From Halichondria panicea (lineage: Eukaryota; Porifera; Demospongiae; Suberitida; Halichondriidae), in NCBI RefSeq assembly GCF_963675165.1, contig NC_087393.1:4768202-4832201 (forward strand): a DNA stretch of 64,000 bases, written 5' to 3'. Below the pieces are notes generated by a model, which saw nothing but the letters and a program-made list of their open reading frames with translations, made no database searches and was not told where the DNA came from. The position numbers were made by a program, and so were the translations under genes. Below are positions 13,140-59,497 of the stretch, piece by piece. The stretch's first letter is position 1, and the number at the start of each line of letters is the position of its first letter.

Positions 13140-16100
13140 ATGGTTGCTTCAGTGAGTGCATCAGAGCCTAAGAAGGTGACCACAGTTAGGAGCAAGGGTC
13201 ACAGATGGTATTTGGGTGGACTGGCTTCTGCAGGAGCTGCAGCCTGTACTCATCCTTTGGACCTGCTCAAAGTCAGTAACTGACACCATCTCTGCAACCA
13301 ACTGTAATCTACGGGATGCTTGGATAAGCCTTTAATACGGGCGGTGGCTGACATTTAATTTTATCCATCCAGCAAGTATTAAGCCATTGTGTAAATGTTC
13401 TGCTGTACATTTGAAAGCTGTGACTAAACTGGTGTTGATTTGAAATGCATCATTGTCAAAATAACTTTTAATGACTATAGCCTCGTACTTTTTCCCAAAA
13501 TTCTACTGTTCTTTTAGCTACCTTTGGGAGCCGGTCGTAAAGCATTCAGTAGCTCTCAGAATGGCCTATTGTATATCTACTGTGATTAGATTTGACAAAA
13601 GCAAAAATGTTAATATTTTCGTCATCTGCAGGTTCACTTGCAAACCCAGCAAGAGGTAGTGCAAGGTTTTGTAGGTACCACGTTCAATGTTGTGAAGCGC
13701 CATGGCTTCCTCACTCTCTATAATGGACTCTCTGCATCTCTCTCCAGACAGGTCAGCCATTGTAGAGTACAGAGGATTTCTAGTTAGTTGATTTATGCTA
13801 TTTATTAACAAGGGTGTCGACAACTTCAGACGAGTAGGGAGGCTCTGAGGTTGGCAAGGAGCACTGACTCTTAATACACAACCAATATGGTATTAAGAAA
13901 CTGGGGGGGGATTCACAGCTCCTGGAGCCCCCTATTGCCTACGGGCTTGATTTAAAGTGCAGCCAACCATGAACACCTCATCCACACACACTGTTTGTGT
14001 GCAGCCAACCATGACACCTTTGTTGTGTGCGTGTGTGTTTACTTGCCTAATGCAATTAGTGGTCTGGTTGGCTGCTCCAGCTAAAAAGCATTCAAACAAC
14101 TTGAAAGTCCTCTGTATTCCCAGTGCTATACTGCACATCAACTAGTGGGTGTCGGCCGTATGCAGCCAACTACATTCATGACTGTTATGTTGACTGCAGC
14201 TTTCGTACTCAACTATTCGGTTTGGAGTGTACGAGATTCTACGGCCTGAGCTAGCTGCCAGGAACGGAGGTCAGTGAAGTGTATTCGGTCACTAGGTATT
14301 TGATCACATGAGATGTTTGCTTCCTGCACTGCTTTCAACTTTACATTCACTAGCATAATTTTATAATGATGTACAAGATTGCAAGCTAGATTAATATATA
14401 ATCCTTTAGTCTTACAGACCTGTCTGTAGTATTGTTTTTCAAATACTATAACATGTGTTGTATGACCTATACATTGCATTTTCAGGTACGATTCCGTTCT
14501 ACCAGAAAATCCTACTAGGAGCATTCGGAGGTGAGATATTGTAATTTCAATGATTCTGTTTCATTTTCTGGAAGGTGGTTTGGAAATATACCATTCTTAA
14601 TGTGAACATTTTATGCTTTCAGAATTGAATTCACGGAATTCAAGTTATGGCGACTGAAAGAGTAGTTCCGTAGCCATAATTATCGTATAACTAAGTACCG
14701 CTTCCTTATTTGCATGGGCACTGCTGCTATCATATGCAGTGCCCTGTGTGTACTGACCCTACATAGACTCTCACTCTCTTGTATCCCCTACTCCTCCTTC
14801 CCCCTCTTCCCCACTGTTGTTAAACTACTTAACCACAACCCTATCCGCTAGTATAGTCACAAGCATGCAAATGCATGAGTGTGTGTGTTCTGTATAATAC
14901 CAGGAACTGATTGTATTTGCAGGTCTTTGTGGAGGGATAGTGGGAAGCCCGTTTGATGTCATCAACATACGGTATTAAAACACTTATCAACACAGTTGTC
15001 TCAGATCGATGCACCCTTTCATAAAGCTAAGCATGCGCTTCAGATACATAACATTTTAAAAGAGGCGTGGCTGTATTGTGACGTGGTACATATTCATACA
15101 GAATGCAAAATGATGTCAAGTTGCCTCCTGAGAAAAGAAGAAGGTATAGTCTGTATCAACAATAATAAGTGCCATTATATGAGTTCCCTTCATGCAGATA
15201 CAAGCATGTCATCGATGGTATCAGAAGAGTCGCAGTAGAAGGTAAGAACATTGCCATGTACAGTGTACATAGAATGCACCGTGTGCACTGTGTTAATTGT
15301 GTATAATATTGTACTCACCCTCTTTGCTTATTCCAGAGGGATTCTTCAAGCTGTGGACTGGAGCTTCTCTCAATATCTGCAGAGCCATTCTCATGACACT
15401 ATCTCAGGTACTAACCTCGTTAAGTGTGCTGCTAGGCAGGGGCTTACTTTCCTGTTACCTCGTTAAGGGTGCTGCTAGGCAGGGGCTTACTCTCCCGTTA
15501 CCTCGTTAAGTGTGCTGCTAGGCAGGGGCTTACTCTCCCGTTACCTCGTTAAGTGTGCTGCTAGGCAGGGGCTTACTCTCCCGTTACCTCGTTAAGTGTG
15601 CTGCTAGGCAGGGGCTTACTCTCCCGTTACCTCGTTAAGTGTGCTGCTAGGCAGGGGCTTACTCTCCCGTTACCTCGTTAAGGGTGCTGCGGCTTACTCT
15701 CCCGTTACCTCGTTAAGGGTGCTGTGGCTTACTCTGCTGTTGAGGGTTCTAATAGGCTTACGTAATAGCTGTCGGTGTATAGGTAAACATGATATTGCTC
15801 ATACACTCTCTTTATACTAGTCTCATGGTTTACCTTGTTCTAGGTGCTACTAGTACTAACTCTCTCACAGCTAGTATACCGGGTTTCAAATGTGAGATTC
15901 CGAATTGCGAGTTTTCGTTCGCATAGATCGCACACGAAAGACTCGCAAAGGAGAGAAGAGCAGCGCATGCAATTGTTAGAAGTGCAATAAGTATCATTTG
16001 CAATTGATTAACTACGCATTCTCAACCCGATATACATGTACGCCCGATATACATGTACGGTAATTATTAGTCAATTTCGGCAAAAGACCAGCTCTGAAAT

Positions 16101-18996
16101 TGTATAATGTACCCAAATTTCTCTGGTTCCCAATACAAGGCTTTAATAGCAGTGTTGATATTCATATCTTAACCATGCAGTGCACAAATGATAGTATCTG
16201 TTATTGTGACAATGTATGCATATAGTGAATGAAAATGAAACTAGTAATTAAATGCTAACATCCTATAATTATGTACTTGTTCTTACAAGGAAGTTATAGT
16301 GGGATTATGCACGGCATTTGTTTTTGGTGTCATAGTTACGTAGTCATCTGCCTCGAAAAACTCTTCAAGCTGCCACTGCAAGGTTTCAAACGTAGGTCTC
16401 TTGCCAGGGTCTTCATCCCAGCAATTTAACATTATCTTATAGAGACTTTCTGGGCAGAACAGCGGCTTGCTCATTCGATAACCTGCTCTGAGCTTCTCAA
16501 CCACTTGTGCATTTGAAACACCAGGATAGGGAGAACGACCAAACGTGGCCAACTCATACAGTAGAATACCGAAAGACCAAATGTCAGACTTGATCGTAAA
16601 TCTGTTTTTAAACATCGCCTCAGGGGCTGTCCACTTGATGGCGAATTTGTCACTGGATGAAGCTTCGTACCACCCACCCTCTGCAACCTGTCTCAACTCT
16701 CCAAGCAAACAGAAATGTTCTTGTCCAACCACAATATTTCTCAGTGCTAAATCTCGATGTATATACCCGTGCTCCTCAAGGGAAGCCATTACTTCAGCTA
16801 TCTGCGTGGCAAGTTTCATCACTTGGGATAGAGTTAAACTATTTTTATTGCTTTGAATGTAGTCGTTCAGGGTTCCTCGTTCTTTAAGCCCTGTAATAAG
16901 GGTCTGCTTATTGCCTGTAGCATAAAACTGGATCGATTTCGATTGCTGGATTTTTTTCGGGAGAAAACTGTCGATCGTGTCTAGTAGTTCGCTTGGAGGT
17001 AGAGTGTTCGGGTTTAGTTTCCTCGCTACTACAGTGAGCTTTGTCCGATAGTTGTTTTGTGAATCACCAGTGGGAGAGTAGTGGCCTCTAAGAACTATTT
17101 TAGTTGGCTTGCTTTTCGATTCTGGTTTTTTTGCTTCACCGTGTATCTTTTCCTCGACTTCTTGTATGAGCGCGTCCTTTCCATCGAGAGTTAGTTTCGT
17201 GTCTGCTCTCGTTTGTGGTTCAATAAGGGTCGTACTGAATTTCTTCATGACCTCTCCCACCCTCTGTAGTACAGGACCTTTAATGCTCATCACTTCTCCT
17301 TTTGTTCCGTTTTTAAGGCCACTATTGGTATACTCCAAACAGGTTGTCATCTGTAGCTGCAGTATCTCTACGCTCTCTTGGTGAGCTGATAGCTCCTGTA
17401 GCTTGTTTTGTGTTTTTGTTTCGAGGAGTTGTAGAATTTGCTCTTTTCTCTGATCGAGTTGTTTGTGCAAATCTTGAATTTCCTTTTTTATGTCAGTCTC
17501 CGCGGCTACTTTTTGATCGTTGATCTCTTTTGCTCTCGTATCGAAGGCTACTAGAGCTTCTCTGATTGTAGTGAGTTTCTCTTTGATTGGCTGTAGGCTA
17601 AAAGCAATCTCATGTTGGTGTTTATCAAAGGCATCTTGTACGAGCTCAAAATAGTGACCTTTGTGGCAATTCATGGAGCAAACAGTGCAGATGAGCTTTG
17701 AGCAAGAGTTGCAGTAGATCTTGAGTTTCTTGTTGGGGTGTTTTTTGCATCGAGGCGTCTGTTTTGAAGGAGCTAGCATCGTGGTATCAGCCGTCACTTT
17801 GAGCATGGGTACTATTTGATGTTCTGCAAGCTCACCCCACATTTTGTGCATTTCTGAGCAATTTTTGCATACAAAGTTCTGGCATTCGCGACAGTACCCT
17901 ACTGCTTGAAATTTCTTGCATTTCTCACAATTGGATTCATGTACTTTAGCGAGAGCCTCATGAACTTCGAAAAGGTGATCGATATAAAAATCAGTGTGAA
18001 GGTCAGCCACTCCGCCCTCCGGTAATGTAGCCACATTTCGACAAGTGGGACAAGTTATGGATTTGCTAGTCTCGTCTTCAACAACTAGTTCTTCGAGACA
18101 TGGTGACGTACAGAAGACATGAAAGCAAGGTAATACTCTAGGCTCCTTAAATTGGCTCAAGCAAATAGAGCACTGCAGTTTAGTATTGATTTTTTTCGCT
18201 TCTTCTTTGGCAGCTATTGGCAAATTTTTTGCCATTGCAGTTCAACAGTTCGATATAGATAGACTTGTACAACAACTATACAGCTCGCTTTTTATAGCTT
18301 CTTGGTTTCAAGGTATTTCTTGTGTATTATTTTGAACATGTTTTGATGGGGATATTTTAAAGGTTATATTCTGAATACAACATGTAGATTTGAGTATACA
18401 AACATTAAGAATTGGTCCATATTCTAAGAGAGCTCATCTGTTATGATGACAGCGCTAGTTGCTTGTCTCTAAAGTGTCCCAATTATCTGTGTTTATTTAT
18501 CGTGTGAGTTATGATATAGCTCACATTTGTTTTCAATTCACAGTAATATTTATATCTCAACTGCAGATTGCTTTCTATGAGCAAGTGAAGCAGATGTTAC
18601 TGGCTACTGGGATCTTCAAGGACAACCCTGTCACTCACTTCACATCAAGCTTTGTAGCTGTGAGTACTGATTTGTGTACATCATTATGTTACACAGGTGG
18701 TTTCCCCTCACAATGCCTCTAATTTGTAGTGCAGTGAATCCTGCTTTTATTACCACTCTATTGATCATGAGATCACCATGCAAGTACTGTACCTAGGCTT
18801 ATACCCTAAAGAGACCACCACTCTATTGATCATGAGACCACTCAGCACTGTCCCCACAAAACTGGAGTCTCACACTATTGACCTCCCTCAAGCGTCCACC
18901 TCTATATAATTATTTTTTAGGTTGATATTATAATCATTGCAAATAATGTGTATAATTTATTTATTGCTAAAACTAGTGCACGCACACCCACCCACC

Positions 18997-19058
<62 letters not shown>

Positions 19059-19614
19059 GTATGGTTGCCACTGCCGCCACACAACCAGTAGATGTTCTTA
19101 AAACAAGGATGATGAATGCACAGCCAGGAGAGTACAAGTCAATCATGCAATGCTTTCTCTATACAGCAAAAACGGGACCCTTAGGTTTCTTCAAGGTACA
19201 GTCAATTGTCTCAATCTTTTGTTGACCTGCTAAATCTGTAAACTCACACTAACATACCTCACACTAACATACGGCACATCTTTTATTATTGCTTATTGCT
19301 TTGAAAGGCCATTTATGTATTCAGAAGAAAAAGCATATAGGGGGGTTATATTGTAGCTAGCCTTTGTCAAAATGGGCTGTTATGTTAGCTGAGTTAGGGT
19401 TGTGCACTTTCACCATTAGAATATGCAATATAGCCCTTTGAAGTGCCATCTATAGCGTATATTTTGCAGTTTTGGTAAATTGCATGTTACATGGTTATGA
19501 CTTGTATTGTTTTTCTCACTACAGGGATTTGTTCCAGCTTTTATTCGACTCGGACCTCACACAATCCTAACTTTTGTATTCTTGGAACAACTTAGAATTC
19601 TGTTACCCAAATAA
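13140..19614 (+). CDS. SLC25A10: Mitochondrial dicarboxylate carrier (11 exons)
   Basis: Exons fit phase exactly: 13140-13271, 13632-13751, 14200-14269, 14486-14530, 14923-14971, 15102-15143, 15198-15241, 15337-15407, 18567-18659, 19058-19195 and 19525-19614, giving 297 residues (human about 287). The three carrier signatures are PLDLLK, PFDVINIR and PVDVLKTR. The reading VHLQTQQEVVQGF then LTLYNGLSASLSRQ, and RFGVYEILRP, identifies the dicarboxylate carrier rather than another SLC25 member. It exchanges malate or succinate for phosphate, sulfate or thiosulfate across the inner membrane. The first donor is GTCAGT. The 3.2-kb intron 8 (15408-18566) hosts a minisatellite and a complete antisense TRIM-kinase gene. 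The acceptor of exon 10 directly follows a long (CA)n tract. Confidence 0.95.
15412..15740. repeat. 43-bp minisatellite in SLC25A10 intron 8
   Basis: About eight head-to-tail copies of a 43-bp unit containing CTCGTTAAGTGTGCTGCTAG and GGGGCTTACTCTCCC. The central copies are almost identical, and the last two are shortened by loss of an internal stretch. It starts within 10 nt of the exon 8 donor at 15408. Open frames across it are simply the repeat translated. Confidence 0.93.
16283..18235 (-). CDS. TRIM (RING, B-box, coiled coil) fused to a Src-like pseudokinase; intronless, nested
   Basis: A 650-residue single-exon protein. RING: C22, C25, C37, H39, C42/C46, C62, C65. Two B-box-type zinc modules lie at about 103-145 and 162-200. 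A coiled coil spans about 205-300. A complete tyrosine-kinase-like domain spans about 378-628. In the kinase, the VAIK lysine aligns with K406 (VVARKL) and the catalytic loop HRDLALRN (493-500) is intact. The DFG triplet is replaced by ELR (513-515) and the glycine loop is degenerate. Activation-loop Y523, KWTAPEA, the SDIWSFGILLYEL helix and CW...RPTF are present, most like Src/Fyn-type kinases. The tail has YVTM (632-635), a YxxM motif of the class bound by PI3K SH2 domains. It is predicted to be a cytosolic E3 ligase with a pseudokinase or weak kinase module. It lies antisense in SLC25A10 intron 8. Confidence 0.92.
   Translation of the reverse strand: MAKNLPIAAKEEAKKINTKLQCSICLSQFKEPRVLPCFHVFCTSPCLEELVVEDETSKSITCPTCRNVATLPEGGVADLHTDFYIDHLFEVHEALAKVHESNCEKCKKFQAVGYCRECQNFVCKNCSEMHKMWGELAEHQIVPMLKVTADTTMLAPSKQTPRCKKHPNKKLKIYCNSCSKLICTVCSMNCHKGHYFELVQDAFDKHQHEIAFSLQPIKEKLTTIREALVAFDTRAKEINDQKVAAETDIKKEIQDLHKQLDQRKEQILQLLETKTQNKLQELSAHQESVEILQLQMTTCLEYTNSGLKNGTKGEVMSIKGPVLQRVGEVMKKFSTTLIEPQTRADTKLTLDGKDALIQEVEEKIHGEAKKPESKSKPTKIVLRGHYSPTGDSQNNYRTKLTVVARKLNPNTLPPSELLDTIDSFLPKKIQQSKSIQFYATGNKQTLITGLKERGTLNDYIQSNKNSLTLSQVMKLATQIAEVMASLEEHGYIHRDLALRNIVVGQEHFCLLGELRQVAEGGWYEASSSDKFAIKWTAPEAMFKNRFTIKSDIWSFGILLYELATFGRSPYPGVSNAQVVEKLRAGYRMSKPLFCPESLYKIMLNCWDEDPGKRPTFETLQWQLEEFFEADDYVTMTPKTNAVHNPTITSL
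18981..19057. repeat. (CCCA)n/(CA)n tract abutting an acceptor
   Basis: A short CCCA run passes into more than 20 CA units and ends in CACACAG, which is the 3' splice site of SLC25A10 exon 10 at 19058. The repeat occupies the place of a normal polypyrimidine tract. Confidence 0.93.
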
Positions 19615-19746: not shown

Positions 19747-20537
19747 TTATGAGTTCAGAATAATCTCAAGTTCTTGACCTTCTTTCAGTCTTTGTACATC
19801 CTTGTCTTTGCGGACCAGTACGTTGGGTAGTTTACGAATCTTTGCCACATCAGATGAGGTCAACTCAAACTCCTCACAAATGGCCGCCAACAGAGACAGA
19901 TAAGTCAGAGATGAGAGCTCCACTTCTACAAAATCGGTCTCCTTTTCTGCAACACGAATTTTAAATGTCACTCCCGGTTTTCTTGAATCGTTTACAGCTA
20001 GTTTAGGCACACCTTTCTCTAAATTCCCATTCATTTTAACTGGTACAATAGTACCACCAGTTATATGGTCGTCTTCCACTTCAACATCGTAATACGGAAA
20101 TACAGGATTCTTTAAATAGTTCGGAACAATAGGTAGGGGGTTGGTATTTTCTAGGGTACATTCTTCAATGGCCTCGGTCGACAATCGAGACGTGAATACT
20201 TCACGAACTTCGGAAGATGTTGCCAATTGCAATGGATGTTCCCCTTTGTGAGTTTCTATTGCTACATCCGCACCACTCTGCAGAAGATGCATCACAACAG
20301 GCGCATGTCCTCTCTTGCATGCCCAGTGTAGAGCTGTCCTGTAGCAGAAAAAAAAATATGACGACATCACGATTACTAAATTCATTGCTTGCTCTATAGA
20401 TGATTACTTATAAGGCCTCTTATTGAACCTACCAGCCGTTCATACTGTTCTGGGAATTGATGCTCACTCCACTTCTCAGCAGCTTCTGCACAGCGTGAAG
20501 ATTTCCAATGCATGCTGCTTCTCTCAGCTCTGCCTCC
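19747..20537 (-). CDS. ANKRD40: ANKRD40 homologue (2 exons)
   Basis: Exons are 20537-20433 and 20338-19747, joined as NG-W-TALHWAC. The N-terminus has two or three ankyrin repeats (REAACIGNLHAVQKLL; TALHWACKRGHAPVVMHLL). A spacer with NPVFPYYDVEVED follows. The C-terminal module FVEVELSSLTY...KIRKLPNVLVRKDKDVQRL ends at EIILNS and is the hallmark of ANKRD40, whose human form has IRKLPNTLLRKDKDV. Molecular function is poorly known. The gene is tail-to-tail with SLC25A10 (133 bp) and head-to-head with the homeodomain gene (183 bp), which carries an almost identical C-terminal module. Confidence 0.93.
19766..19933 (-). repeat. Inverted near-identical tract, ANKRD40 copy
   Basis: These 168 bp match 21864-22031 on the other strand with three mismatches by eye, and similarity stops abruptly at both ends. 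The tract covers the conserved C-terminal module of ANKRD40. Confidence 0.9.
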
Positions 20538-21707: not shown

Positions 21708-22152
21708 GGTGTGATTTTTCTCTCCTTTTCTCTGTACAGATGCTGCTAGCCCTACAATTCGAGTACTGAAAACTGTACCACCTTCACACAGTGCACCACA
21801 GGCGTCACAGGCTGAAACACAGTTTCTTGTTAAAGTGCGATTGTCTGAAGTCGATGATGAAGATTTTGTAGAAGTGGAGCTCTCATCTCTGACTTATCAG
21901 TCTCTGTTTGCGGCCATTTGTGAGGAGTTTGAGTTGACCTCATCTGATGTGGCAAAGATTCGTAAACTACCCAACGTACTGGTCCGCAAAGACAAGGATG
22001 TGCAAAGACTGAAAGAAGGTCAAGAACTTGAAGTCGTCATAAACTCAACCCGTCTTCGTGGTTACCATGGCAATTCCATCGTATCCAATGACAACATGCC
22101 TCCGGGAGTTTCGTTGCAAAATTTATCGAGTGGACATTTCATTACCCCGTAG
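20721..22152 (+). CDS. Homeodomain protein with ANKRD40-type C-terminal module (3 exons)
   Basis: Exons 20721-21107, 21407-21656 and 21740-22152 are in phase and give 349 residues. An acidic N-terminus is followed by an atypical homeodomain, from RGKRTVINIWQKAILEDYF to VIKNWIRNRRR. The exon 1-2 splice (ATCAAG to AACTGG) restores helix 3 with W48, N51 and R53 kept. A Ser/Thr/Pro-rich linker (PLSVPSMLPPIPII) follows. The last exon carries KVRLSEVDDEDFVEVELSS...IRKLPNVLVRKDKDVQRL, the ANKRD40 C-terminal module, then a short tail ending HFITP. It is predicted to be a nuclear DNA-binding protein. I cannot place the homeodomain in a named class; KNWI-N-RRR is closer to divergent classes than to ANTP or PRD. 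This fusion is not one I know from other animals. Confidence 0.85.
21671..21702. repeat. (GT)n tract after homeodomain-gene donor
   Basis: About 15 GT units begin 14 nt after the GTGAGT donor at 21657. Confidence 0.9.
21864..22031 (+). repeat. Inverted near-identical tract, homeodomain-gene copy
   Basis: Partner of 19766-19933. The three mismatches change Leu/Gln and Leu/Phe and one silent site. Sequence outside the tract is clearly diverged, the usual footprint of gene conversion between inverted copies. Confidence 0.9.
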
Positions 22153-28609: not shown

Positions 28610-29947
28610 TTAAGATTTTTTACACAGTTGCTGCAGTTGTTCCTCTCTGTCATTGTAACAGCCTAGGAAACTGTTGCTTGAGTAGACCACGGGTTGTCCA
28701 CAATGAAGTGCTAGCTCATCCGACGCAACGGGACCATCATTCCACATCAAATCAAATCCACCAATTCTCTTTTCAGTGCCACTTAGTCGTCCCTCCATGT
28801 CCACAATGTGCAGCATATCCGTTAGGAGTCCAAACTTGAGGTCATAGTCTGTTTGGCTGCTTGCTGTGAGGCTAGGAGAAGCGTTGACTTCAATCAGCCA
28901 CGGCTTGAGGTTATCATCAAACATAATGTCAAATCCATACATCTCGAAACAGTGCTTGTCATTGATAATGATTTTTTGAATACTCTGTAAGCTCTTTATG
29001 AATATTTCGTCAATTTGCTGAAACAACCTTCGCACAACTTCATGACCGTGTCTTGCCGTCAGGTACATACGAAATTCCTGAAGGCTCCACTTGCAACCTT
29101 TTTGAGGATCGTAATCTGGTGCCGTTTTTTGTATGGCCACATTTGTAAGATGCACGAAAGCGTCACTAATCGAATTGAGAGAAAATCGGGCGTTTGAGAA
29201 TCTTGCAAATCCACTTCTGTACAGCCAGACCTTGAGTGGTGTGTAGGACATCACTAGTACATACACACGAATATCGAATTTCTTTCCACCAATTAGATAA
29301 GGGTTTTCGATGTAACGCTGAACAACGTAAGTCTCGGGAGGTTCACGTTCGTTTTTTTCATCATCACGATTGCGGTGATAGTAGTCTTCCTTCTTCCAGT
29401 CAGTAATATCTTTAAGTTTTCGAAACAGGAAAATTCCTTTCCCCTGTGCTTTGCCTGCGGGTTTCATGATCCAAATAGTGCCCGGGTTGCGTTTGAATTG
29501 GTCGACAAACATATGATATTCTGACGGTAGCTCATATGTCGTGGGGAAAAAATCACATTTGGCAGCTTCAATTTTCGATTCTTTTTCGTACTGTCGTTTC
29601 AGTTTCTTCAGATTTCGTGCCATGAGATTTTTTCGGCTGATTTCGTAATGATTCCTGAAATGGCAAATTCGCTGATGTTCCTCGAAGTAACATTGATCAA
29701 AGTGATCCTTCATCCAGCCCACATCACACCAGTAGAAGTCCCAATCCTCTCCTTCCTTGACTTCTTGCCATCCTCTTGTTTTCATAACAGCTCCAATGGT
29801 GTTGTGCAGAAAAGTTCGATAGCGGATTGCTCGATCATGAACCTTGGTTTGTTTGACTGGCCTGGTACTTATAAGATATGAAGGGACTACAGTGGTAGTA
29901 CCTTCAGGCTTTGTAGTTGCCTTAGAGTCTCTTTTGCTTGTGGCCAT
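28610..29947 (-). CDS. TTLL9: Tubulin tyrosine ligase-like protein 9, single exon
   Basis: A protein of 445 residues, collinear with vertebrate TTLL9 (about 440). Landmarks are [45 protein letters not shown], the ATP-grasp segments [18 protein letters not shown] and [31 protein letters not shown], and the metal/ATP site [20 protein letters not shown]9 is a ciliary tubulin polyglutamylase-type enzyme. The gene has no introns, unlike nearly all its neighbours, so a retroposed copy that replaced the parent is plausible. The frame is intact. It lies 306 bp from the 3' end of U2AF2, a spacer with no visible feature. Confidence 0.95.
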
Positions 29948-38169: not shown

Positions 38170-40658
38170 TGGATACTGTTAAGTAAACTCAGTACACCTA
38201 TATACTCAACTTGAGGGTCAAAATATACAACCCTACCAGGAAAACAGGCATAACGATAACGGTGACAAGTATATGAAAAGTGACCTCCGACAGTCCACCC
38301 ACTCTAGATAGTGCAGCAATACATACCGTACAGCCCCTGCAACGCACACATGCACTTGGTACTACAGGCTGTACGGTCGTAGACACATAGGCTGGACTAT
38401 GTACGTACCTTCCAAACGCTCCGTATGTGTTGACAATCTTGAGAGAGTTGAAGGAAGTGTTCATGACTTGATGCTGAGAGAGGAGGTTTAGGACCACTGG
38501 GATGCTCAGGTAACCTAGCAACAATGCCACGCCCACATTGGACACTTGTCGAACGTAGTAGCCTGAAATAAAAAACGATTTTCACATGCATGCAATTACT
38601 AACAAGTACATTAAGATCTGGGCATATTTCTTAAAATGAGGCCTTTTGACAACTATCTTTGACTGCTCATAACTTTAGCATTCCCGCAAGTATCAGAGAA
38701 ATCGATACGCTGGATGACGAGCACTTTTTTAAACCACTAGGGGATTAATTTTTTGCTCCTAAGGCTAAACGATATATGAATCATAATATCTCCCATAGCA
38801 CTAGGAATGGTGTTCTTACCCAAAGGTTTAGCTGTTTCCTTCTTGGCCTCTTGTTGGAGTTGCACCACTTTCTCTTTAGTAGCTGCAGAGAAGAGCCATT
38901 GCAGGGAGAGGTCATCAAAGCAGAAGATGGCTGACAGAATGGTGAGCCAATTGAGGAAGCTTAGATTACCGCTGAGTATCAGCATCACCTACAGTACAAT
39001 CATTGTAAGTGGTAGCGGCGATTCACAATATTCAATCCCCAGATCTTAAGGTATGGCTGATAAAAACATCGAATAAATATCGTATAGCAGGTGAGTTTCA
39101 TGAGTAAACATTTTTTGCTTTTTAACAAGCACTGCATTGCATGCGTTCCAGTGAACCACGCCTGGGTAAAATTTTCGCTGAGGTCAGCTTGCCCACGAAA
39201 GTTACCCGCTATACGGTAGGCAGACTACAACAAGAGTGTTATGTTTATACCTGAAAGATGATCTGCACCACTCCACAGGTCAGTCTAAAAGGACGAGGGA
39301 GGAAGATGAGAAACGGAACCACTAACTCCACAAAATGGTTGCCCAGAGTCTCAAGCTTGTGCACAAAGGCAGGACTCTGATGGAGAAAGTAACTGAGAGG
39401 GTTGGGAACTGGCTGAGTCTGTAGGGAGTGAATAGTAGCAACTAACACCTTACACTAGTATACATGTATATACGTGCATGAGGAACAAATGGACACATTA
39501 TGATCACACTATAATACGTAACAGGAGTCCTGCACATAATTATTAGATTATTACCATCGCTGACCTCGTAATGATAGTCCATGCATGTCAAATCCCCCCA
39601 GCACTCGTCACCTCTGATCTTGATCAGTCCCTGTAAAATAAATAAAAAGTTTGATCTTTTCACCTAAATCAGTATTATTGTCTAAGCGTTCGTCCACTCA
39701 CAGCTCCTATCATGATTCTGAAGAGAAGCCATCTGTTGGCCCACACTGCTACCCAGGGAGTGGGTGTGCCTCGGGGAAACTGCCTCAGGCTGAATAGAGG
39801 CACCATGATCAACGCTAGGAAACCAATCTCAAGAAGCTGGACCTCCCAACCTGTGTGAAGGGACTGTGTGTGAAATGATAATACAATGTATAGCTATAAA
39901 TTCAGACAAAATATGAAATAAACGACAAGATGACTACTATCAGGATGTGTGTTGTGTGTATGTACAATAAAAATGACAAGTTCCAGTAGTGCAAGTTAGG
40001 CTGGAGAAAGCAGCAAAGGTGTGAGGTAGGCATCACTAACTCTCAAATACAACAACTACAGGGCAAGATGGACTAAATGACAAGACTACTGCCTTTTCAA
40101 GTTTGGAACTTCAATGCTGATAATGAAATCTCACAATACACTCTAGAGTCACATGAAATAATGCAGCAATTTGATTGGACGACTCACCAAAGGCATACCA
40201 AATCTGCCCCACGAATACAAGAGAGTGGTACAAAACTCTCAACACAACAAAGATGAGCACATTTCCTGAGCCCAGAAACAATAAGATGGCCGAGAGTGAT
40301 ATTCCGAGGTAAGCCACCAAGTCTAGAGTGAGGTCAACATAGTGTTCAGAGATCCACCAAAACAAACTGGGCCCTTTCAAGAATGCATCCATAGTAACAG
40401 TCGAGTTAGCGGGCACCTGAAATAGGTAAAAATATCATGAAGTAACCTGTTGGTCCATTTAATTTAGCGTAAATTTAGAGATTCGCAAATGCAAATGCAA
40501 AAATTGTGTAGCCTATTTATAAATTGAGAAAGAATGCACAATTGCTTCTCACTCACTTCCAGAGCCGTTCTGATTCTGGAATAGAACACTGGAATGGGGA
40601 GTAGACCGTTGGCACCGATAAGTTCCTTGTTCTGGTTCAGTGCCACCAGGAATGCTAC

Positions 40659-40702
<44 letters not shown>

Positions 40703-40910
40703 ATGTGTGTGTGCATGCATGTACTGAGCTGATTGACAGGTGCTCACAATAGACAAAGCCAATGGATCGAGTAAACACGATCCTGGTAAGCCAGTAGGTC
40801 CCAGCATCCATCTCAAGATGCTGCTCCACTGGAGCCTCTTTCTCTCTCACTTCATCTTCAGCAGGCTTTCTACTAGCAGCAACAGCTCGTCTTCGCACAG
40901 AGGAAGACAT
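37354..40910 (-). CDS. LMF1: Lipase maturation factor 1
   Basis: The start at 40910 (MSSSVRRRAVAASRKPAED) is followed by exons 40910-40748, 40660-40557 (VVAFLVALNQNKELIGANGL), 40416-40188 and about 39852-39700. The next carries GLIKIRGDECWGDLTCMDYH, followed by 39418-39252, 38988-38820, 38560-38410, 38065-37775 and 37530-37354. The order TYWLTRIVF, GAGLIKIRGDECW, SGNLSFLNWLT, QVMNTSFNSLKIVNTYGAFG and RPCIISPYHYRLDWMMWFAAFQ follows vertebrate LMF1. LMF1 is a multipass ER protein required for folding of lipoprotein lipase dimers. The gene is intact. Its 5' half was copied into the tandem units to the right; the duplication edge falls within the exon 39418-39252. Confidence 0.95.
38083..38168. 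repeat. (GT)n microsatellite in LMF1 intron
   Basis: More than 40 GT units, which read (CA)n on the gene strand and end about 20 nt before the acceptor ACCTTCACAG of the exon starting near 38065. Confidence 0.95.
39079..39218. repeat. MITE-like element in LMF1 intron
   Basis: The left end reads CGTATAGCAGGTGAGTTTC and the right end GAAAGTTACCCGCTATACGG, inverted copies of the family terminus. It is about 140 bp long. Confidence 0.65.
40664..40700. repeat. (GT)n tract abutting LMF1 exon 2 acceptor
   Basis: On the gene strand it reads (CA)n ending CGCACACAG, directly at the acceptor of LMF1 exon 2 (40660). The paralogous site at about 57820-57860 keeps it in shorter, interrupted form. Confidence 0.9.
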
Positions 40911-41094
40911 CTCTCATGTCTCTTCACACCCTCAGCAGGTCCATGTGGGTATGGACTATCTTTCGAAAATTGGCCGCAAGATTTTAGCGGTAAAGATCAT
41001 TAGTGGAGGACACCTTTTATGGAGATGTGTCAAGTGCTGGAAGAGTTGTCCTGCAAAACACAAGCCATCACTGTTCTGCACTGCAGCAATAATT
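40911..41094. promoter_or_regulatory. Divergent promoter: LMF1 / Ig-like gene
   Basis: A 184-bp spacer between the LMF1 ATG (40910) and the signal-peptide ATG at 41095. The same arrangement is conserved in unit 3 (58053/58237). Confidence 0.5.
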
Positions 41095-41820
41095 ATGGAG
41101 ACTCGAGTTGTCCAGATTCTGCTGTTGTGTATTGTGTCCACCTGCTGGGGACAGCAAGGTAATCCTGTGCTTATTGATAGACTAGAGGTGCTATGAACTT
41201 GATTTTAATCAGATAGAACAGTTCTATCTATGTTTTAATTAACCTGAACAGCCTCACTGACCCTGGGCCCATGGAATCCTATTGTCACCACTAACAATAT
41301 GGAGATCCTCATCACTGACGTTGGAGAAGATGGTAGTCTTCCCTCTCCGGCTCACCTGTCACACTGACCTCACTACCTAGTATGGGATCAGGTGGCTTAT
41401 ACGGCACCGGATGTGGAAACGCCCTAATTTTAGTTATTTTCCCTAAGCTAACCCGAACCCCTCCCCCTTCAAAATAACATCCGGTGCCGTATATGCCACC
41501 TGACCCGGACCCGTATGGCTGAGAACAATGGTCAGGGAGGACTGGGACAGTGGACGTATCCTGACGGGAGTGTATTACTGAACACTGCTGCATTATACCA
41601 ACTCAACCTGGGTGAGTGGAACAAATTATTATCATTGCCGTACTTCTGTATATTATGTCAGCCACGTGTTCACCTTCTTCATGAGTTCATGAAACTACCT
41701 ATCCCCCTCCCCCTACAGTTGCACCAGTATGTTCTGGTAATCTCCAGGCCATTTAATGGTGGATCCAGACCAGTGGCCTCGGATGCAGCCAGTTACAAGT
41801 GCTTCAATCCCCACAAAAAT
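41095..41820 (+). pseudogene. Ig-domain secreted or membrane protein gene, copy A, probably broken
   Basis: Exon 1 (41095-41158) is a clean signal peptide, METRVVQILLLCIVSTCWGQ, ending in a GTAATC donor. Later pieces give Ig landmarks: LRLTCHTDLTT (B-strand cysteine), GQWTYPDGSVLL (core tryptophan) near 41555-41585, and SDAASYKCFNP (D-x-Y-x-C) near 41785-41815. The Ig frame does not join without shifts: GPWNPIVTTNN and LRLTC are in different frames, and an extra C after FNP shifts copy A against copy D. A 135-bp MITE splits the domain at 41380-41515. A functional splice form cannot be ruled out. Downstream exon-like pieces near 42020-42130, 43390 and 43650 are repeated in copies B, C and D but their product is not recognised. 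Confidence 0.5.
41380..41515. mobile_element. MITE, about 135 bp, inside Ig-like gene copy A
   Basis: Terminal inverted repeats of about 30 bp: GGTGGCTTATACGGCACCGG against CCGGTGCCGTATATGCCACC. There is a short AT-rich interior, and TA occurs at both flanks. The orthologous copy is at 58522-58659, so insertion predates that duplication. Confidence 0.75.
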
Positions 41821-42341
41821 TAACACCGACCACCATGTTGGTTTCATACACTCTGATTGGACTGTCAGTCAGTTAGGACTTGTGGGAGTTATGGAGCTCA
41901 TCAACAGCTGCAGTGTGTGAGCGCAGAGAATGCCTTAATGTATGCAATGGCAAGTACATAGAGATTGATCAATAATAATTATTGTGACTCATGCATATAT
42001 ATACTCCATATTTTGCAGATGGTCATTAATTGGTGTGGCACTGTAAGAGCTGCATGGTGACTGTGGGTGTATACCCCTAGGCCCTATATATATGGGAAGA
42101 TTCAGACGAGGACCTCTATACTTATATGGAATGGTGAGAATTTCCTGTTCTCAGCACTGCGCCCACAATATATGAGTGTAGGCTTACTGTATACTTAAAC
42201 TGTTTGTAATACCACCACAAAGATACTGAAGTTATTCTATATGACAACCACAATCATGTTTACTGTATATACCCAGCTGTTTGTAACTGTCTGCACCGTC
42301 TATATATGCATGGCAACCCACATGCACCTGTTACATTGAGA

Positions 42342-43260
42342 TCTACGGTGGCCCTGAGTGCTACTCTAGTTGGGAGTTGGCAGTTGCTAGTTGGGTGTTG
42401 GTAGTTGGCAGTTGGCAGTTAGCAGTTGGGAGTTGGCAGTTGGTAGTTGGGAGTTGGCAGTTGGGAGTTCGTGACCTTTAAACTTTGTAACGAACTAATG
42501 CCAGGAATTATTCTGTTTCTCTAAGCCTTCATTGATGGGGGCAAGCCCTACCTAATGTACATTGTATAGTGGACACACGTTAGCTGTCTGAGGCCAGCAA
42601 AGACTACATCTTCTACACCAGTTAGCAAATGTTGTATATATAGATCTTTGCACTGCCTCTAATCGTTTAACCATAACTTTAAATGGCCTCAATAGAATTA
42701 AAAGTGCCATGCAAAACCTGTTTCTATATTGCCCCCCCCCCTCCCCACTGCATGGGATCCGGGAATATAGGTGCATGGGGATTAGACTTGAAATTACCTC
42801 CCTACCTAGATGTGTACATATAAGATTAATATTGCCGTCTTAGGCCAGCTAGATATCTATTGGTGTCAGTATCATAATTTTAACTTACATAAAAGCCGGC
42901 TAATGTTGAAAGGTTACGAACTGCCAACTACCAACTCCCAACTACCAACTCCCAACTGCCAACTCCCAACTACCAACTCCCAACTGCCAACTGCCAACTC
43001 CCAACTCCCAACTCCCAACTGCCAACTGCCAACTACGCGTTTGAACTATCAATCAGCAACTGCGAACTACCAACTACGCATTTGAACTATCTTAGTAGCA
43101 ACTGCGAACTACCAACTACGCATTTGAACTATCTTAGTAGCAACTGCGAACTACCAACTACGCATTTGAACTATCAAGTAGCAACTGCGAACTATCAACT
43201 AGGCATTTGAACTATCAAGTATGAACTATCAACTAGAGTAGCACTCAGGGCCACCGTAGA
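42342..43260. mobile_element. Foldback element of short tandem repeats, copy A
   Basis: Terminal inverted repeats of about 31 bp (TCTACGGTGGCCCTGAGTGC at the left, GCACTCAGGGCCACCGTAGA at the right) enclose arrays. The left arm has GTTGGGAGTTGGCA-type units (about 42370-42475), and the right arm the reverse, CAACTCCCAACTGCCAACTA (about 42918-43030). Longer units ending GCATTTGAACTATC follow to about 43240. The centre (42480-42900) is unique DNA with no frame worth calling. Copy C lacks it at the same place. Confidence 0.8.
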
Positions 43261-46049: not shown

Positions 46050-48850
46050 TTACTTTAATACCTGATGTTCGGACACTTGATCAGGACCAGGGAAGGGAGT
46101 GCCGTCTCTGGAATACGATTGTGGAGAGAAGACACCACTTACCTATATATATAACCAAAAGAATAACCTCTATATACTTTTCAGACCATGCAGACCCGCA
46201 TGAACTGATGACTATGTATATATAATGGTTACACGCTTGCATGCATGTAAATGTTTTAAATGTGAGTTTCTTAGAGCCAATAATTATATGATAATTATAT
46301 GCATCGTATATATATTACCTCGATGTGGTGGTCTCTCTGAGACGGTTTAATCCCTTGCGTGTCAGGAAAATCTCTGTGTTTATAGCCATGTACTAGCAAA
46401 GATACTGCATGTGTGTTGTTGCTGCGTTGGGCTTTATGAAGCATTGTCCTTTCGTTCGAATCGGTGTATATTTTATTAATGTCAACTCCATTTTTTTCCA
46501 TTAAATCTAGCACTACTCTAAACGTATCCAACTCGTTACGATCATATGGAATACAGTTCATGAGATAGTGAAAAGGTGTGTGATCCTCTTTATCCAGAAC
46601 TTGCATAGCAGGAAGGATATCGTGTTGAACTTGTTTACATGCGTCAATAACGATGTCAAGGAACCATGACCACATACCCTCTCTACAAGCAATGTGGAGA
46701 AGAGTGTTACTTCGGTCACCCAGATTAAACTTGATTCCTGTCAGATTGGATAGAACATTGTGCTGAACACACAGGTTAAACAGTAGCTTGACTGCTGCAC
46801 GGTGTTGCATTTCGAAAGCTAATTCGATGGGAGTTTTTCCATTACCGTTTTTTGCACGCAGAATATAACTAATTTGCTGAGAATCTCCCTTGACGAAAAG
46901 ACCTATCTTGTTTTGATTGACTCTAATCCCACTCTGAATAGCACTATGAACTGGCAAATCTTCATCCTTATCCGTTTTAACAAGTTGTTCGGGAGGCATC
47001 TTAGAAATCATTTTCTGCATTCTTTCAAAAGTGAAAGATGTACTGCTCCTAGCTAGGCCATGAGTTGCAGTTCCTCGGAATTTCTTATCAAGTTTGTCAA
47101 TTGAGTCTTGATACGTGTACCTCACATTGAGGGGATTATCATCCACCAGATCATCATAGTTTTCTTTTAGCCACGTCTCCCACTTTAGACCCTGTATATA
47201 ATTATATATATACATAATATACTATAGAGCACTGTATATAGTGATATATCCTCGACAGTTGACATCTCACAACCATGACGTGCTGTTGTACAAATTATGC
47301 AAACAACATGCAGTACATATAATATATATAATTATATATATATATATGCATGGGCGTTTCTAGAAAGTGCACAAAGCAGAGGGGTGCTGAAGTTTAACCT
47401 TGCGCAAGGTATGACCTCACATTGATTAGGTTGCGCCTTTTGTGGAATTCTATTTAACGTGACTTTGTAACTAGAGCACTGAATTTGTGCTAACCCTGGA
47501 CTATTTCACGTCTCACAACCAAGCAGGTAACGATACGATACGTACATGAACATGGAAGAGCTGCAATTACCTAAACATTGTAATGCAACTAACCTACTCA
47601 CACAGTCTACAATAATTATACTTATGTTACCATACCTCTGATGCTTTCTCGTATTTCCAGAGATCTGATAGGAGAAACTCGTGCTCAGACAGGCGAACAA
47701 CATTTTCGACTTTATCCTGCATTAATAGGATCTTGCATAAAGCTTAAGTGTATGGTACTAGTGAATGATGTGTATATAGATCTACATGTACTTAAGTTGA
47801 ACAACTTTCCATAGATATGTTTAAACATCAGGCCCGGATCTAGGGGGTGGATTTCAGGGGTCGCAACCCCCCAACACTAACAAAAACTAGCTTAACCTAC
47901 ACTCGTGTTGCTTGTGGCTATGAGCAATGTGGTTAACAGGGCTGCATCCAGGATTTTGGATCAGGGGGGGCGAATTGGGCAATTTAAAAATGTAGGAGGG
48001 GTGAAGTCATCAGAATTATAGCAGTACAAATGAATCTGCCAGATCCTAGGGGGGGGGGGCGAATTACCCCCCTCGCCCCCCCTCAATGAAGGCCTGATTA
48101 ACTTACAAGCTGTGAACTACTATCTGTTGACATGAGTACAAGTCCAGGACACACTAAGTATATTATAGTAAATACACATTCATTCCACACATGTATTATG
48201 TATATACATGACAAGGCACCTAGCTGTAGTAGACAGTTAGATTTGTAAGTATATTTTGTGCACGTTTACTATGATGTCAATTTCAATTAAGAGGCATGGT
48301 CAAATTTTGCGCGCGCTTTTGTTTTATAACCCCCCTATAAATTTTTGCCTGAGCCCCCGAATATCCTCATAATTAGACTCACTGATATACCCTCGACAGC
48401 AACACAACCATGACACGCTGTTGTACAAATTATGCGGCAAAAAACATGCAGTACACATGCACATATATAATTATATATATATACGTTCCTCGCACAAGGT
48501 ATGACCATTAATTAGGTTGCGCCTTTTGTGGAATTCTGTTTAACGTGACTTATAGTAATAACAGTTAAGAGCCAGGGTTGCAAGTTTGTGTATAATTATA
48601 GAATAGAAATTACCTTTTCTAATAACACTCTGTGAGGGAAAGCAAAACATGGGGAGAGGCATCATCATAAAATATTCGTAAATAGTGTGCACGAAAGTAA
48701 CCCTAATAAAAATGCACACTGTATATACGAAGTACAAACCTCTTCACTCTGACTCAGAGTCTGAGTCTCACTTGGGATGGTAGAGCTAGCCTGTGATGTT
48801 TGGTTCTGGTCCTGATCATCAAGCACCGGAGATATCGATGGTGTGGCCAT
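46050..48850 (-). CDS. Ankyrin-repeat protein 1 of a tandem family (4 exons)
   Basis: Exons 48850-48740, 47716-47636, 47191-46319 and 46142-46050 join in phase 0 and give 385 residues. The N-terminus is polar (ISPVLDDQDQNQTSQASST). Exon 2 encodes a helix (VVRLSEHEFLLSDLWKYEKA). Exon 3 opens GLKWETWLKENYDDLVDDNP and then holds about five ankyrin-type repeats: DLPVHSAIQSG, KTPIELAFEMQHRAAVKLLF, NTLLHIACREGMWSWFLDIV, HTPFHYLMN and RTMLHKAQRSNNTHAVSLLV. The last exon is a short Ser-rich tail (VSGVFSPQSYSRDGTPFPG). There is no membrane segment or signal peptide, so it is cytosolic. The N-terminal helical region before the repeats recalls death-fold or adaptor modules, but I cannot assign it. The function is unknown. 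Confidence 0.82.
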
Positions 48851-49539
48851 TCTAGATAAATTCACAAAAAAGAGTTGACAAAAACTGTTCTTGGCATTGA
48901 TTGGCTTCTCTATCTGGCATGCGCATAGCCTTCTTTTCCAGGCCAGAGTCTAGTTAGCCACGAGACCAGTAATCGGCCTAGATTCGAGGCTAGAGTCTAG
49001 CCATCAACCAACTTCTTCTATTAAAAAAAATCGGCCTGGGACCGAGACTAGCATGCACAATGCTGGAAGAGCCACGCCCATAAAAAAATTTATGTTAGGC
49101 CGTGTTTTCTCCATTGTAACCATCACAGGCACTTCCGTACCGGTATATTAGAGAAATATCGTCCTGGAAATGGCCGTGTGGTTGGGTAAGAAACTTTGTT
49201 GTTTTGGTGTGTGTTCATAGCAGCAGGTATAACTTCCAGGAAAAAACAATTGTGTATTAATATTAATTTTATAAGTCATTTTCGTGGCGTTTGGTATTCG
49301 TGCTCAGGGAGTCAACCTTTTGCCCCCCCCTCCCCCGAAAGTTACTCGATATACATTATTAGGTTAATTAGAGGTCAATTTGAAAACTCAAAGAGAGAAA
49401 AACTGTATTTTATATGCATACATTGTCTAGGTGCTACCAAGGGCGTATACACAGAAGATTCTCTGTATATGCCCTTGGTGCTACAAAATGAAATTATAAT
49501 AAGGAGGAAAAATTACAAGAGGGGAAAATTGAATACGTG
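48851..49539. other. Spacer between ankyrin gene 1 and the 85-residue gene
   Basis: The upstream region of the ankyrin gene, with a repeated GAGTCTAG / CTAGACTC-like motif (48950-49060) and an imperfect hairpin at about 49437-49483 (ACCAAGGGCGTATAC against GTATATGCCCTTGGT). The long plus-strand frame across 49196-49690 is conserved in unit 2 only because the DNA is duplicated. Unit 2 carries a small deletion near 55320 relative to 49170-49185. Confidence 0.5.
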
Positions 49540-50014
49540 CTATGATTGTTTGTCTGTATTTCTGGCTTTCCTTTTTGCCATCCATTCATTGAGAGTGTCT
49601 GCCATTTCTGTGATTGACCAGTCGGGTCCTCCAGGTAGTAGGTCCTGCTCGGCTGCAGGGGTGGGGAGGGGACGAGACAGAGAGTATTAATACCCTCGGC
49701 AAGTTTACATGAGGATTAACCTAAAGACTACACATGGGCTGGGTAGGAATAGAGCAATTTCCTCAGCAAGTTTGCTACGAAACAATCAAAATTAACCTAA
49801 GAACAATACATAGGCTGCAGGTAGAGCTACAATAAAGTATGTATAAGCTAGGCACTGGAGTGTGCTTACTATAGTCAGTCATGCAGACAAAATGCACTTC
49901 ATTTTCGCCTATAAACTCCAGTTCTTGACCTCTATGGTCATATAGAGTCTGACAGAGGCACCTCTCCCTTGAGGTCCATATTGACACATAGTAGAGCTTT
50001 GGCTTGTCAGTCAA
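49540..50014 (-). CDS. Unrecognised 85-residue protein, copy 1 (2 exons)
   Basis: Exons 50014-49870 and 49652-49540 join in phase through GTAAGC and CCCCTGCAG. The protein is small and acidic, reading MTDKPKLYYVSIWTSRERCL, ending WSITEMADTLNEWMAKRKAR plus a short tail. An N-terminal beta-like half (ELEFIGENEVHFVCMTDY) is followed by an amphipathic helix. There is no signal peptide or membrane helix. I do not recognise the family. A second copy with one amino-acid change visible in exon 1 beyond Thr/Ile is at 55675-56160, and both keep splice sites and frame, which supports a real gene. Confidence 0.6.
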
Positions 50015-50182
50015 AATGAACGTCGCCTCTTACTGAACAGACCCTATATATACACATGTCTATAGGTGAAAGGAAACACAATTAACCCTGCATGTGTATC
50101 ACACAGGATATTGCAATACACATACCTTGTACTGCCTTTTATTACACACACACGTATTACCACCCGCACACACACGAAAACA

Positions 50183-50285
50183 CTAATGGTTGCCCAGAGT
50201 CTCGAGCTTGTGCACAAAGGCAGGACTCTGATGGAGAAATTAACTGAGAGGGTTGGGAACTGGCTGAGTCTGTGGAGAGTGAATA
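50183..50285 (-). pseudogene. LMF1 exon remnant in unit 2
   Basis: Matches the LMF1 exon at about 39340-39425 (CTCAAGCTTGTGCACAAAGG class, encoding PNPLSYFLHQSPAFVHKLET). The rest of LMF1 is deleted here. Not functional. Confidence 0.85.
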
Positions 50286-50344
50286 GTAACAACTAATACA
50301 CACCAGTACATGTATGTGTATATGTACACAAGGAATAAATATTG

Positions 50345-54986: not shown

Positions 54987-55674
54987 TCTAGATAAACTCA
55001 CAAAAAAGAGTTGACAAAAACTGTTCTTGGCATTGATTGGCTTCTCTATCTGGCATGCGCATAGCCTTCTTTTCCAGGCCAGAGTCTAGTTAGCCACAAG
55101 ACCAGTTAGATTTGTAATCGGCCTAGATTCGAGGCTAGAGTCTAGCCATCAACCAACTTCTTCTATTAAAAAAAATCGGCCTGGGACCGAGACTAGCATG
55201 CACAATGCTGGAAGAGCCACGCCCATAAAAAAATTTATGTTAGGCCGTGTTTTCTCCATTGTAACCATCACAGGCACTTCCGTACCGGTATATTAGAGAA
55301 ATATCGTCCTGGAAATGGCCATAAGAAACTTTGTTGTTTTGGTGTGTGTTCATAGCAGCAGGTATAACTTCCAGGAAAAAACAATTGTGTATTAATATTA
55401 ATTTTATAAGTCATTTTCGTGGCGTTTGGTATTTGTGCTCAGGGAGTCAACCTTTTGCCCCCCCCTCCCCCGAAAGTTACTCGATATACATTATTAGGTT
55501 AATTAGAGGTCAATTTGAAAACTCAAAGAGAGAAAAACTGTATTTTATATGCATACATTGTCTAGGTGCTACCAAGGGCGTATACACAGAAGATTCTCTG
55601 TATATGCCCTTGGTGCTACAAAATGAAATTATAATAAGAAGGAAAAATTACAAGAGGGGAAAATTGAATACGTG

Positions 55675-56160
55675 CTATGATTGTTTGTCTGTATTTCTGG
55701 CTTTCCTTTTTGCCATCCATTCATTGAGAGTGTCTGCCATTTCTGTGATTGACCAGTCGGGTCCTCCAGGTAGTAGGTCCTGCTCGGCTGCAGGGGTGGG
55801 GAGGGGACGAGACAGAGAGTATTAATACCCTCGGCAAGTTTACATGAGGATTAACCTAAAGACTACACATGGGCTGGGTAGGAATCGAGCAATTTCCTCA
55901 GCAAGTTTGCTACGAAACAATCAAAATTAACCTAAGAACAATACATAGGCTGCAGGTAGAGCTATGGAAAAATCAATAAAGTATGTATAAGCTAGGCACA
56001 AAAGAGTATGCTTACTACAGTCAGTCATGCAGACAAAATGCACTTCATTTTCGCCTATAAACTCCAGTTCTTGACCTCTATGGTCATATAGAATCTGACA
56101 GAGGCACCTCTCCCTTGAGGTCCATATTGACACATAGTAGAGCTTTGGCTTGTCAGTCAA
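55675..56160 (-). CDS. Unrecognised 85-residue protein, copy 2 (2 exons)
   Basis: Exons 56160-56016 and 55787-55675 have the same structure as copy 1. Changes include Gln-Thr to Gln-Ile after CLC and Tyr to Cys at the exon junction; the second exon appears identical. The spliced frame is intact. The product is not recognised. Confidence 0.6.
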
Positions 56161-56315
56161 AATGAACGTCGCCTCTTACTGAACAGACCCTATACACATG
56201 TAGGTGCATGGAAACACAATTAACCCTGTGCATCACACAGGCTATTTGCAATACATCTACATTGTACTGCCTTTTATACACACACACGCATTACCACCAC
56301 TACATACACATGTGC

Positions 56316-58053: not shown

Positions 58054-58236
58054 CTCTTCACAACCCTCAGCAGGTCCATGTGGGTATGGACTATCTTTCG
58101 AAAATTGGCCACAAGATTTTAGCATAGTTTGGTAAAGATCATTAGTGGAGGACACCTTTTATGGAGATGTGTCAAGTGCTGGAAGAGTTGTCCTGCAAAA
58201 CACAAGCCATCACTGTTCTGCACTGCAGCAATAATT

Positions 58237-59067: not shown

Positions 59068-59497
59068 GCGCAAAGAAATAGTTGAATGCCTTAATGCATA
59101 CAATGGCAAGTATATAGAGATTGATCAATAATATTGTGACTCATGCATATATATACTCCATATTTTGCAGATGGTCATTAATTGATGTGGCACTATAAGA
59201 GCTGCATGGTGACTGTGGGTATACCCATATAATATAGGCCCTTATATGGGAAGATTCAGACGAGGACCTCTATACTTATATGGAATGGTGAGAATTTCCT
59301 GTTCTCAGCACTGCGCCCACAATAAATGAGTGTAGGCTTACTGTATACTTAAACTGTTTGTAATACCACCACAAAGATACTGAAGTTATTCTATATGACA
59401 ACCACAATCATGTTTACTGTATATACCCAGCTGTTTGTAACTGTCTGCACCGTCTATATATATGCATGGCAACCCACATGCACCTGTTACATTGAGA

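Follow-up and report, generated by a model that had tools for sequence, protein, structure and literature searches.

The C-terminal domain is the basis on which TRIM proteins are classified, and one locus of Halichondria panicea raises the question of whether a sponge TRIM carries a kinase fold at that end and, if so, what the fold could still do there. The locus lies in a stretch of 64,000 nucleotides, which we analyzed at its full length and call the window. An earlier note on this DNA had described an intronless frame encoding a RING, two B-boxes, a coiled coil, and a whole Src-like kinase domain, nested antisense in a mitochondrial carrier intron. Sequence comparison now makes it nearly certain that this is a sponge protein-coding gene in which a TRIM RBCC front is followed by a truncated segment of a Src-family kinase, one that looks catalytically dead.

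Reading frame and relatives

The single uninterrupted frame of the earlier note was confirmed. It comprises 650 codons and a stop, running from ATG to TAA on the minus strand (Table 1), and an in-frame TGA stands upstream with two codons separating it from the ATG. At the stop density of the 64-kb window, the probability that a given start is followed by 650 open codons is approximately 3e-17 to 6e-16, and the frame is therefore not a product of chance. Pfam ordered the domains as RING, two B-box stretches, and PK_Tyr_Ser-Thr. The claimed RING, two B-boxes, and coiled coil held up, through Pfam matches, conserved zinc ligands, and a modeled helix.

Table 1. Features of the fusion gene and its host in the window (positions count from the first nucleotide of the window)
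Feature	Residues	Position	Strand	Basis
Host gene, SLC25A10-type mitochondrial carrier, 11 exons		13140..19614	+	Exon reading, Pfam
TRIM-pseudokinase gene (predicted)	650 in all	16283..18235	-	650-aa frame, Pfam, near-identical P0001, relatives P0002-P0005
RING finger	21-66	18038..18175	-	Pfam; ligands invariant in alignment; low-confidence model
B-box 1	103-141	17813..17929	-	PF22586, below its cut-off; ligands invariant
B-box 2	160-196	17648..17758	-	zf-B_box PF00643, best match; ligands invariant
Coiled-coil helix (predicted)	197-309	17309..17647	-	Model; block pLDDT 56-85 over 201-310
Linker	361-401	17033..17155	-	Gap between TRIM and Src homologies
Src-derived pseudokinase segment (predicted), beta-3 to C-lobe end	402-628	16352..17032	-	Pfam, alignment, profile match
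HRD motif, kept	493-495	16751..16759	-	Alignment
Glu at DFG Asp place; Phe and Gly columns deleted	513	16697..16699	-	Alignment
Tail motif DDYVTMTP	630-637	16325..16348	-	Alignment

In a protein search, 2048 of 7989 scored candidates passed E ≤ 0.001. The 120 matches listed include both halves together in at least five database clusters (P0001-P0005), next to 30 TRIM types without the kinase and 85 kinases without the TRIM part. Homologues with the same domain order, which the earlier note had named as potential support, were recovered in these clusters. P0001, which represents 4 sequences from 3 contigs, is identical to the window protein at 649 of 650 residues, the difference being K165Q. 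Identity in the alignment falls to 86% for P0002, 65% for P0003, 63% for P0004, and 56% for P0005; for each of P0002-P0004, a single local alignment spans 96-100% of the query, and P0005 aligns in two pieces. A simple pattern joining a RING-type motif and HRDLA hit only P0001-P0005 among 330 database proteins, and a profile search (225 proteins) gave no further fusions among the 120 matches listed. Relatives of the separate halves include named proteins of Amphimedon queenslandica (P0069) and Halichondria panicea (P0126, P0165, and P0167), as well as more distant named animal kinases. No viral or prokaryotic homologue was confirmed among the 78 genome_contigs and 271 viral_contigs pattern matches to words of the RBCC half.

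To place the fusions among their relatives, a tree was built for each half. The kinase tree (81 rows) took 76 of the 83 kinase matches in P0037-P0120 (P0110 is a TRIM), the 7 without an HRD pattern being excluded, and the TRIM tree (46 rows) took 41 hand-picked TRIM matches besides the fusions. Both were short searches without bootstraps in which the P0005 branch is long; in each, the five fusions formed one branch with SH-aLRT 100, the window protein adjoined P0002, and P0005 was outermost. P0003 and P0004 paired in the TRIM tree, and their fork was unresolved in the kinase tree. The simplest reading of these trees would be a single fusion event and descent from it, perhaps including a duplication that gave a window/P0002 type and a P0003/P0004 type. 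In substitution-only neutral simulations, the frame remained free of stops in 1 of 200 runs at 13.8% protein divergence and in 0 of 200 at 35%. Because neutral runs nearly always acquire stops, the fusion frames look kept by selection.

The TRIM half

A RING with zinc ligands, two B-box stretches, and a predicted coiled coil make the front half a TRIM (RBCC) module. Over residues 1-360, it aligned with sponge TRIM-filamin-NHL proteins across 356 columns at 54% identity (hhalign probability 100). These relatives (P0007-P0026, P0028-P0036, and others), some of them named Halichondria panicea TRIM3-like or TRIM71-like, share the RBCC half with the fusion and differ in carrying filamin and NHL domains where the fusion has its kinase segment. 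The homology covers the predicted coiled coil to residue 360, and our reading is that it ends near the filamin start. Pfam gave no filamin or NHL match in the fusion protein, which places it outside the TRIM-NHL class. The best reading of the alignment is that a Src kinase lobe occupies the place that the filamin-NHL end would have held in a sponge TRIM-filamin-NHL ancestor. The linker that follows is expanded and rich in S and Q in P0005.

The RING was matched by two Pfam profiles, PF13445 (residues 22-63) and PF13639 (residues 21-66). By-eye assignment gave the C3HC4 ligands as C22, C25, C37, H39, C42, C46, C62, and C65, with Ile24 at the E2-contact place and Arg66 at the linchpin place. In the alignment of the five fusions, no variation was seen at the zinc ligands of the RING or of the B-boxes, which were likewise assigned by eye. 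The usual RING spacing at the fifth and sixth ligands is C-x2-C; the window protein has C-x3-C there (residues 42-46), as do TRIM-NHL relatives such as P0007.

The linchpin residue divides the fusions, being Arg in the window protein and P0002 and Gln in P0003, P0004, and P0005. One study reports that TRIM6 and TRIM22, with Gln at this place, are inactive, notes that some RINGs stay active with a different linchpin residue (for example, Ser in TRIM32), and counts TRIM3 with the TRIMs that have no RING dimer helices and are unable to ubiquitinate (PMC11992055). Because the RBCC belongs with TRIM2/3, an active ligase is plausible here but cannot be taken for granted. On its RING sequence, the window protein is, by a modest preference, expected to be an active ligase, and some of its fusion relatives may be pseudoligases.

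The kinase half

The kinase domain was not whole, in contrast to what the earlier note had proposed. The PK_Tyr_Ser-Thr match (residues 427-623, E 8e-57) covers only positions 56-258 of the 258 in the profile. A profile-profile match to sponge Src extends over residues 402-632 (229 columns, 51% identity) and starts at beta-3. Src homology is present from that strand on, and the first two kinase strands with the Gly loop were not recognizable in the profile comparison, so the domain is incomplete. The nearest kinases by sequence are Src-type, and Pfam found neither SH3 nor SH2 in the fusion, leaving it without the SH3-SH2-kinase order of the Src family.

Catalytic motifs were compared between the five fusions and 49 hand-picked Src-type rows. 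The three loop glycines are Gly in 1, 4, and 0 of the five fusions versus 46, 48, and 43 of the 49 Src-type rows, and a complete three-Gly loop occurs in none of the fusions. The beta-3 Lys is present in two fusions versus all 49 Src-type rows, the window protein having Arg405 followed by Lys; the alphaC Glu is present in 0 of 5 versus 47 of 49. At the DFG Asp, every fusion has Glu or Asn, whereas 48 of the 49 Src-type rows have Asp. The Phe and Gly columns of this motif are deleted in all five fusions and in none of the Src-type rows, 6 of which have a residue other than Gly at the Gly column. The HRD Asp was kept in 5/5 fusions (48/49 Src-type), the catalytic-loop Asn in 5/5, and the activation-loop Tyr in 2/5. 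Thus, among the marks of an active kinase, HRD and the catalytic-loop Asn are present in the window protein, and the three-Gly loop, beta-3 Lys, alphaC Glu, and DFG are absent. These motif losses, with homology only from beta-3, led us to reject by sequence the reading as a whole active kinase. The segment is predicted to be a truncated pseudokinase, a kinase by homology whose catalytic motifs have been lost. Some residual function is conceivable, given the kept HRD, the beta-3 Lys in two relatives, and the Lys after Arg405 in the window protein.

Conservation differs along the protein. Identity of the window protein to P0002, P0003, P0004, and P0005 is 90, 77, 73, and 59% over the C-lobe and 84, 49, 51, and 29% over the N-lobe remnant. 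In P0003 and P0004, only the tail is less similar than this remnant; in P0005, no segment is; and in P0002, its identity is not low. In P0005, the RING (66%) and the B-boxes (64 and 81%) are better kept than the C-lobe. The full-length AlphaFold model (mean pLDDT 64.4, pTM 0.38) is useful for the coiled coil, B-boxes, and C-lobe only, the RING region being modeled poorly (block pLDDT 33-70 over residues 1-60). A kinase-only model from 54 rows reached a mean pLDDT of 73.8 and a pTM of 0.70. In it, C-lobe blocks scored approximately 87-98, with one at 73, and the N-lobe was mostly below 50. The modeled C-lobe superposed on Lck (3kxz) at 1.5 A over 182 columns.

Other unusual kinase arrangements were seen among the matches. 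By eye, P0111 and P0113 are apparent dual kinases of approximately 550 aa, with a Ser/Thr-kinase-like domain followed by a Src-like one. P0006 and P0027 carry Src-like kinase domains in series within a single chain; the HRD or DFG motif is degenerate in several of them.

The C-terminal tail

The tail is otherwise poorly conserved, but all five fusions carry the motif DYxxM[ST]P in it, as DDYVTMTP, DDYVSMTP, SDYVTMSP, DDYVKMSP, and DDYEPMTP. YxxM was found in 3 of 78 Src-type tails versus 5 of 5 fusions; the 78 come from 83 kinase matches, 5 without the anchor pattern having been excluded, and several of the tails are short. The common Src-type sponge tail resembles DGGYREPE. A phosphorylated YxxM is a docking site for the SH2 domains of the PI3K regulatory subunit, and we regard the DYxxM[ST]P tail as a candidate lead to function.

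The host gene and the surroundings

The gene does lie antisense within an intron of a mitochondrial carrier, as previously described. The carrier has 297 aa with three Mito_carr repeats in Pfam, and its 11 exons are intact, with 10 introns that are all GT-AG. The family follows from the Pfam match, and by sequence the gene is SLC25A10-like. Intron 8 spans 15408-18566 (3159 nt), and the fusion gene is wholly inside it on the opposite strand. The same intron holds a tandem array with a unit of approximately 43 bases at 15414-15735, downstream of the fusion 3' end.

The earlier note had also proposed that a retroposed or mobile gene was inserted here. The lack of introns in the single frame and the antisense nesting fit retroposition, which would be one possible origin of the gene. 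Within the 3' flank (15740-16282), however, no run of T exceeds 4, and a direct repeat of 16 nt with 14 matches (at 16196 and 18436), the best one flanking the gene, was equaled in 19 of 300 shuffles. Old insertions lose both the poly-A remnant and the target-site duplication. A gene can also lack introns for other reasons: among the database matches, relatives of both the TRIM-NHL and the SH2-kinase kind occur as long single proteins encoded on large contigs, which suggests that both parent genes may have been intronless over these parts.

A TTLL9-type tubulin polyglutamylase occupies 28613-29947 on the minus strand as a single frame of 445 codons, with relatives of similar size listed from many contigs. 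It is 90% identical to P0212, and the fusion is 56% identical to P0005; each of these two matches comes from a contig of 2,033,391 bases. They are probably on one contig, which points to conserved linkage of TTLL9 and the fusion in another genome. If the linkage holds, the fusion would have changed much faster than TTLL9 in the same species pair.

Duplications were also observed in the window. Two pairs of direct segmental duplicates, each approximately 3.5-4 kb and 95% identical, lie at 39657-43180 and 56812-60338 and at 46320-50314 and 52451-56464; the latter pair includes an ankyrin-type frame, and further pieces of 76-90% occur in the same region. The opposed frames 19750-20403 (minus) and 21715-22149 (plus) share a near-identical VEVELSSLTYxSLxAAICEEFELTSSDVAKIRKLPNVLV, and one of them has an ankyrin repeat. 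This pair looks like an inverted duplicate.

Proposed mechanism

Taken overall, the best explanation is a TRIM whose docking module is formed by the tyrosine-bearing tail together with a dead Src lobe, to which we assign a probability of roughly 0.6. That the lobe would serve docking and not catalysis is, for itself, quite probable from the motif losses. The coiled coil would dimerize the RBCC part, as in other TRIMs, and the RING would recruit E2~Ub. The dead C-lobe would offer a docking surface in the manner of Tribbles or titin kinase, here within a single chain. The tail tyrosine, once phosphorylated by a real tyrosine kinase, would dock an SH2 protein or switch the lobe. Src-family kinases or their partners are candidate clients because the lobe copies their own surface, although we consider this identification of the clients rather unlikely.

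A fuller version, which we consider unlikely, is an E3 gated by phosphotyrosine. Src-type kinases would phosphorylate DYxxM[ST]P, the lobe would bind active Src or its partners as a mimic, and the RING would ubiquitinate them. If true, it would be a one-polypeptide counterpart of systems that pair a pseudokinase with an E3, and sponges would have arrived independently at a Cbl-like brake on Src. The coupling of ubiquitin ligation to phosphotyrosine-type recognition that the earlier note envisaged gained no support from the tests made.

Alternative explanations

Other accounts of the gene were weighed against the docking module. An assembly or gene-calling artefact that united two adjacent genes would explain why the fusion is so rare among the matches listed. 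Its probability is negligible in our estimate, as the join is shared by the P0001 sequences and four diverged relatives and the frame in the window is continuous. An assembly join between the coiled coil and the kinase in particular is very unlikely, the same join being found in five database clusters. A functionless retrocopy or decaying gene inserted in the carrier intron is hardly more credible. It could claim the absence of introns, the antisense nesting, and the 16-nt repeat, but that repeat is reached in 19 of 300 shuffles and accompanied by no long T run, and P0001-P0005 keep open frames with both halves where neutral simulations nearly always give stops. A TRIM with an active kinase, an unusual phosphorylation route that would couple ubiquitination and phosphorylation enzymatically, is very improbable. 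Some kinases without one catalytic motif are active, and HRD and the catalytic-loop Asn in every fusion, with the beta-3 Lys in two, speak for it; the five fusions, however, share the loss of the three-Gly loop, the alphaC Glu, and DFG, with a two-residue deletion at the last, and the first two strands fall outside the Src profile match.

Two further alternatives are unlikely, though less so, and we rate them alike. In one, neither end is active, and all that the protein provides is a dimeric scaffold or a dominant-negative partner for other TRIMs. Such a pseudoligase-pseudokinase would agree with the Gln that P0003-P0005 have at the linchpin place and with the reported inactivity of TRIM3 (PMC11992055). 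Against it are the Arg at the same place in the window protein and P0002 and the RING zinc ligands, invariant in all five fusions. In the other, the gene is a fast-evolving immune protein whose lobe is a Src decoy, baiting pathogen proteins aimed at host Src so that the RING marks them. The fusion seemingly evolves faster than its neighbor, at 56% (P0005) compared with 90% for TTLL9 (P0212), but TTLL9 is a conserved enzyme and the rate contrast is therefore not specific; conservation is also fairly high in the C-lobe, which would probably be the bait face.

Comparison with known systems

Compared with sponge Src-family kinases (Amphimedon queenslandica P0069 and many unnamed ones), the fusion is alike from beta-3 to the C-lobe end. 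It differs in having no SH3/SH2 match, three-Gly loop, alphaC Glu, or DFG, and its tail reads DYxxM[ST]P instead of a GYREPE-like sequence. The earlier note knew of no TRIM with a tyrosine-kinase-type domain. A search of the open-licence literature likewise found no natural gene of this kind, but tumor fusions of the type are known as TRIM24-RET, TRIM27-RET, and TRIM33-RET (PMC7230609). Like the sponge gene, they join a TRIM part to a tyrosine-kinase part; they are tumor rearrangements with RET, whereas the sponge gene occurs in several database clusters, is Src-derived, and is dead by sequence. Within their accessible parts, the Marin TRIM survey distinguishes nine main subfamilies and has the word "kinase" six times, in its reference list only (PMC3503706), and a holozoan tyrosine-kinome paper describes a sponge-specific Src-Aque1 family, with "ubiquitin" and "RING" not found (PMC8662651).

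Pseudokinases that work with an E3 ligase are known as separate proteins. Titin kinase, a pseudokinase, binds the E3 MuRF1 (PMC4042850), and Tribbles pseudokinases position substrates for E3s (PMC5382568). Tribbles-COP1 and titin kinase-MuRF1/TRIM63 each consist of two proteins, and the sponge fusion is one polypeptide.

MAP3K1 and plant U-box kinases do have an E3-type and a kinase domain in one chain; unlike the sponge fusion, they are not TRIMs, and their kinases belong to other groups and are regarded as active. Neither Tribbles nor titin kinase is known to be Src-derived.

We regard the fusion as a TRIM whose C-terminal module is of a new type. If selection has indeed kept its kinase-fold end, the TRIM family would gain a further class. 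As a natural single chain of E3-type and pseudokinase parts, the protein would make the idea of a dead kinase as a substrate platform for an E3 testable without reconstituting a complex. With graded relatives, P0005 being outermost and the window/P0002 pair, P0003, and P0004 lying inside it, the order in which the domain was swapped, catalysis was lost, and the tail was gained can be studied.
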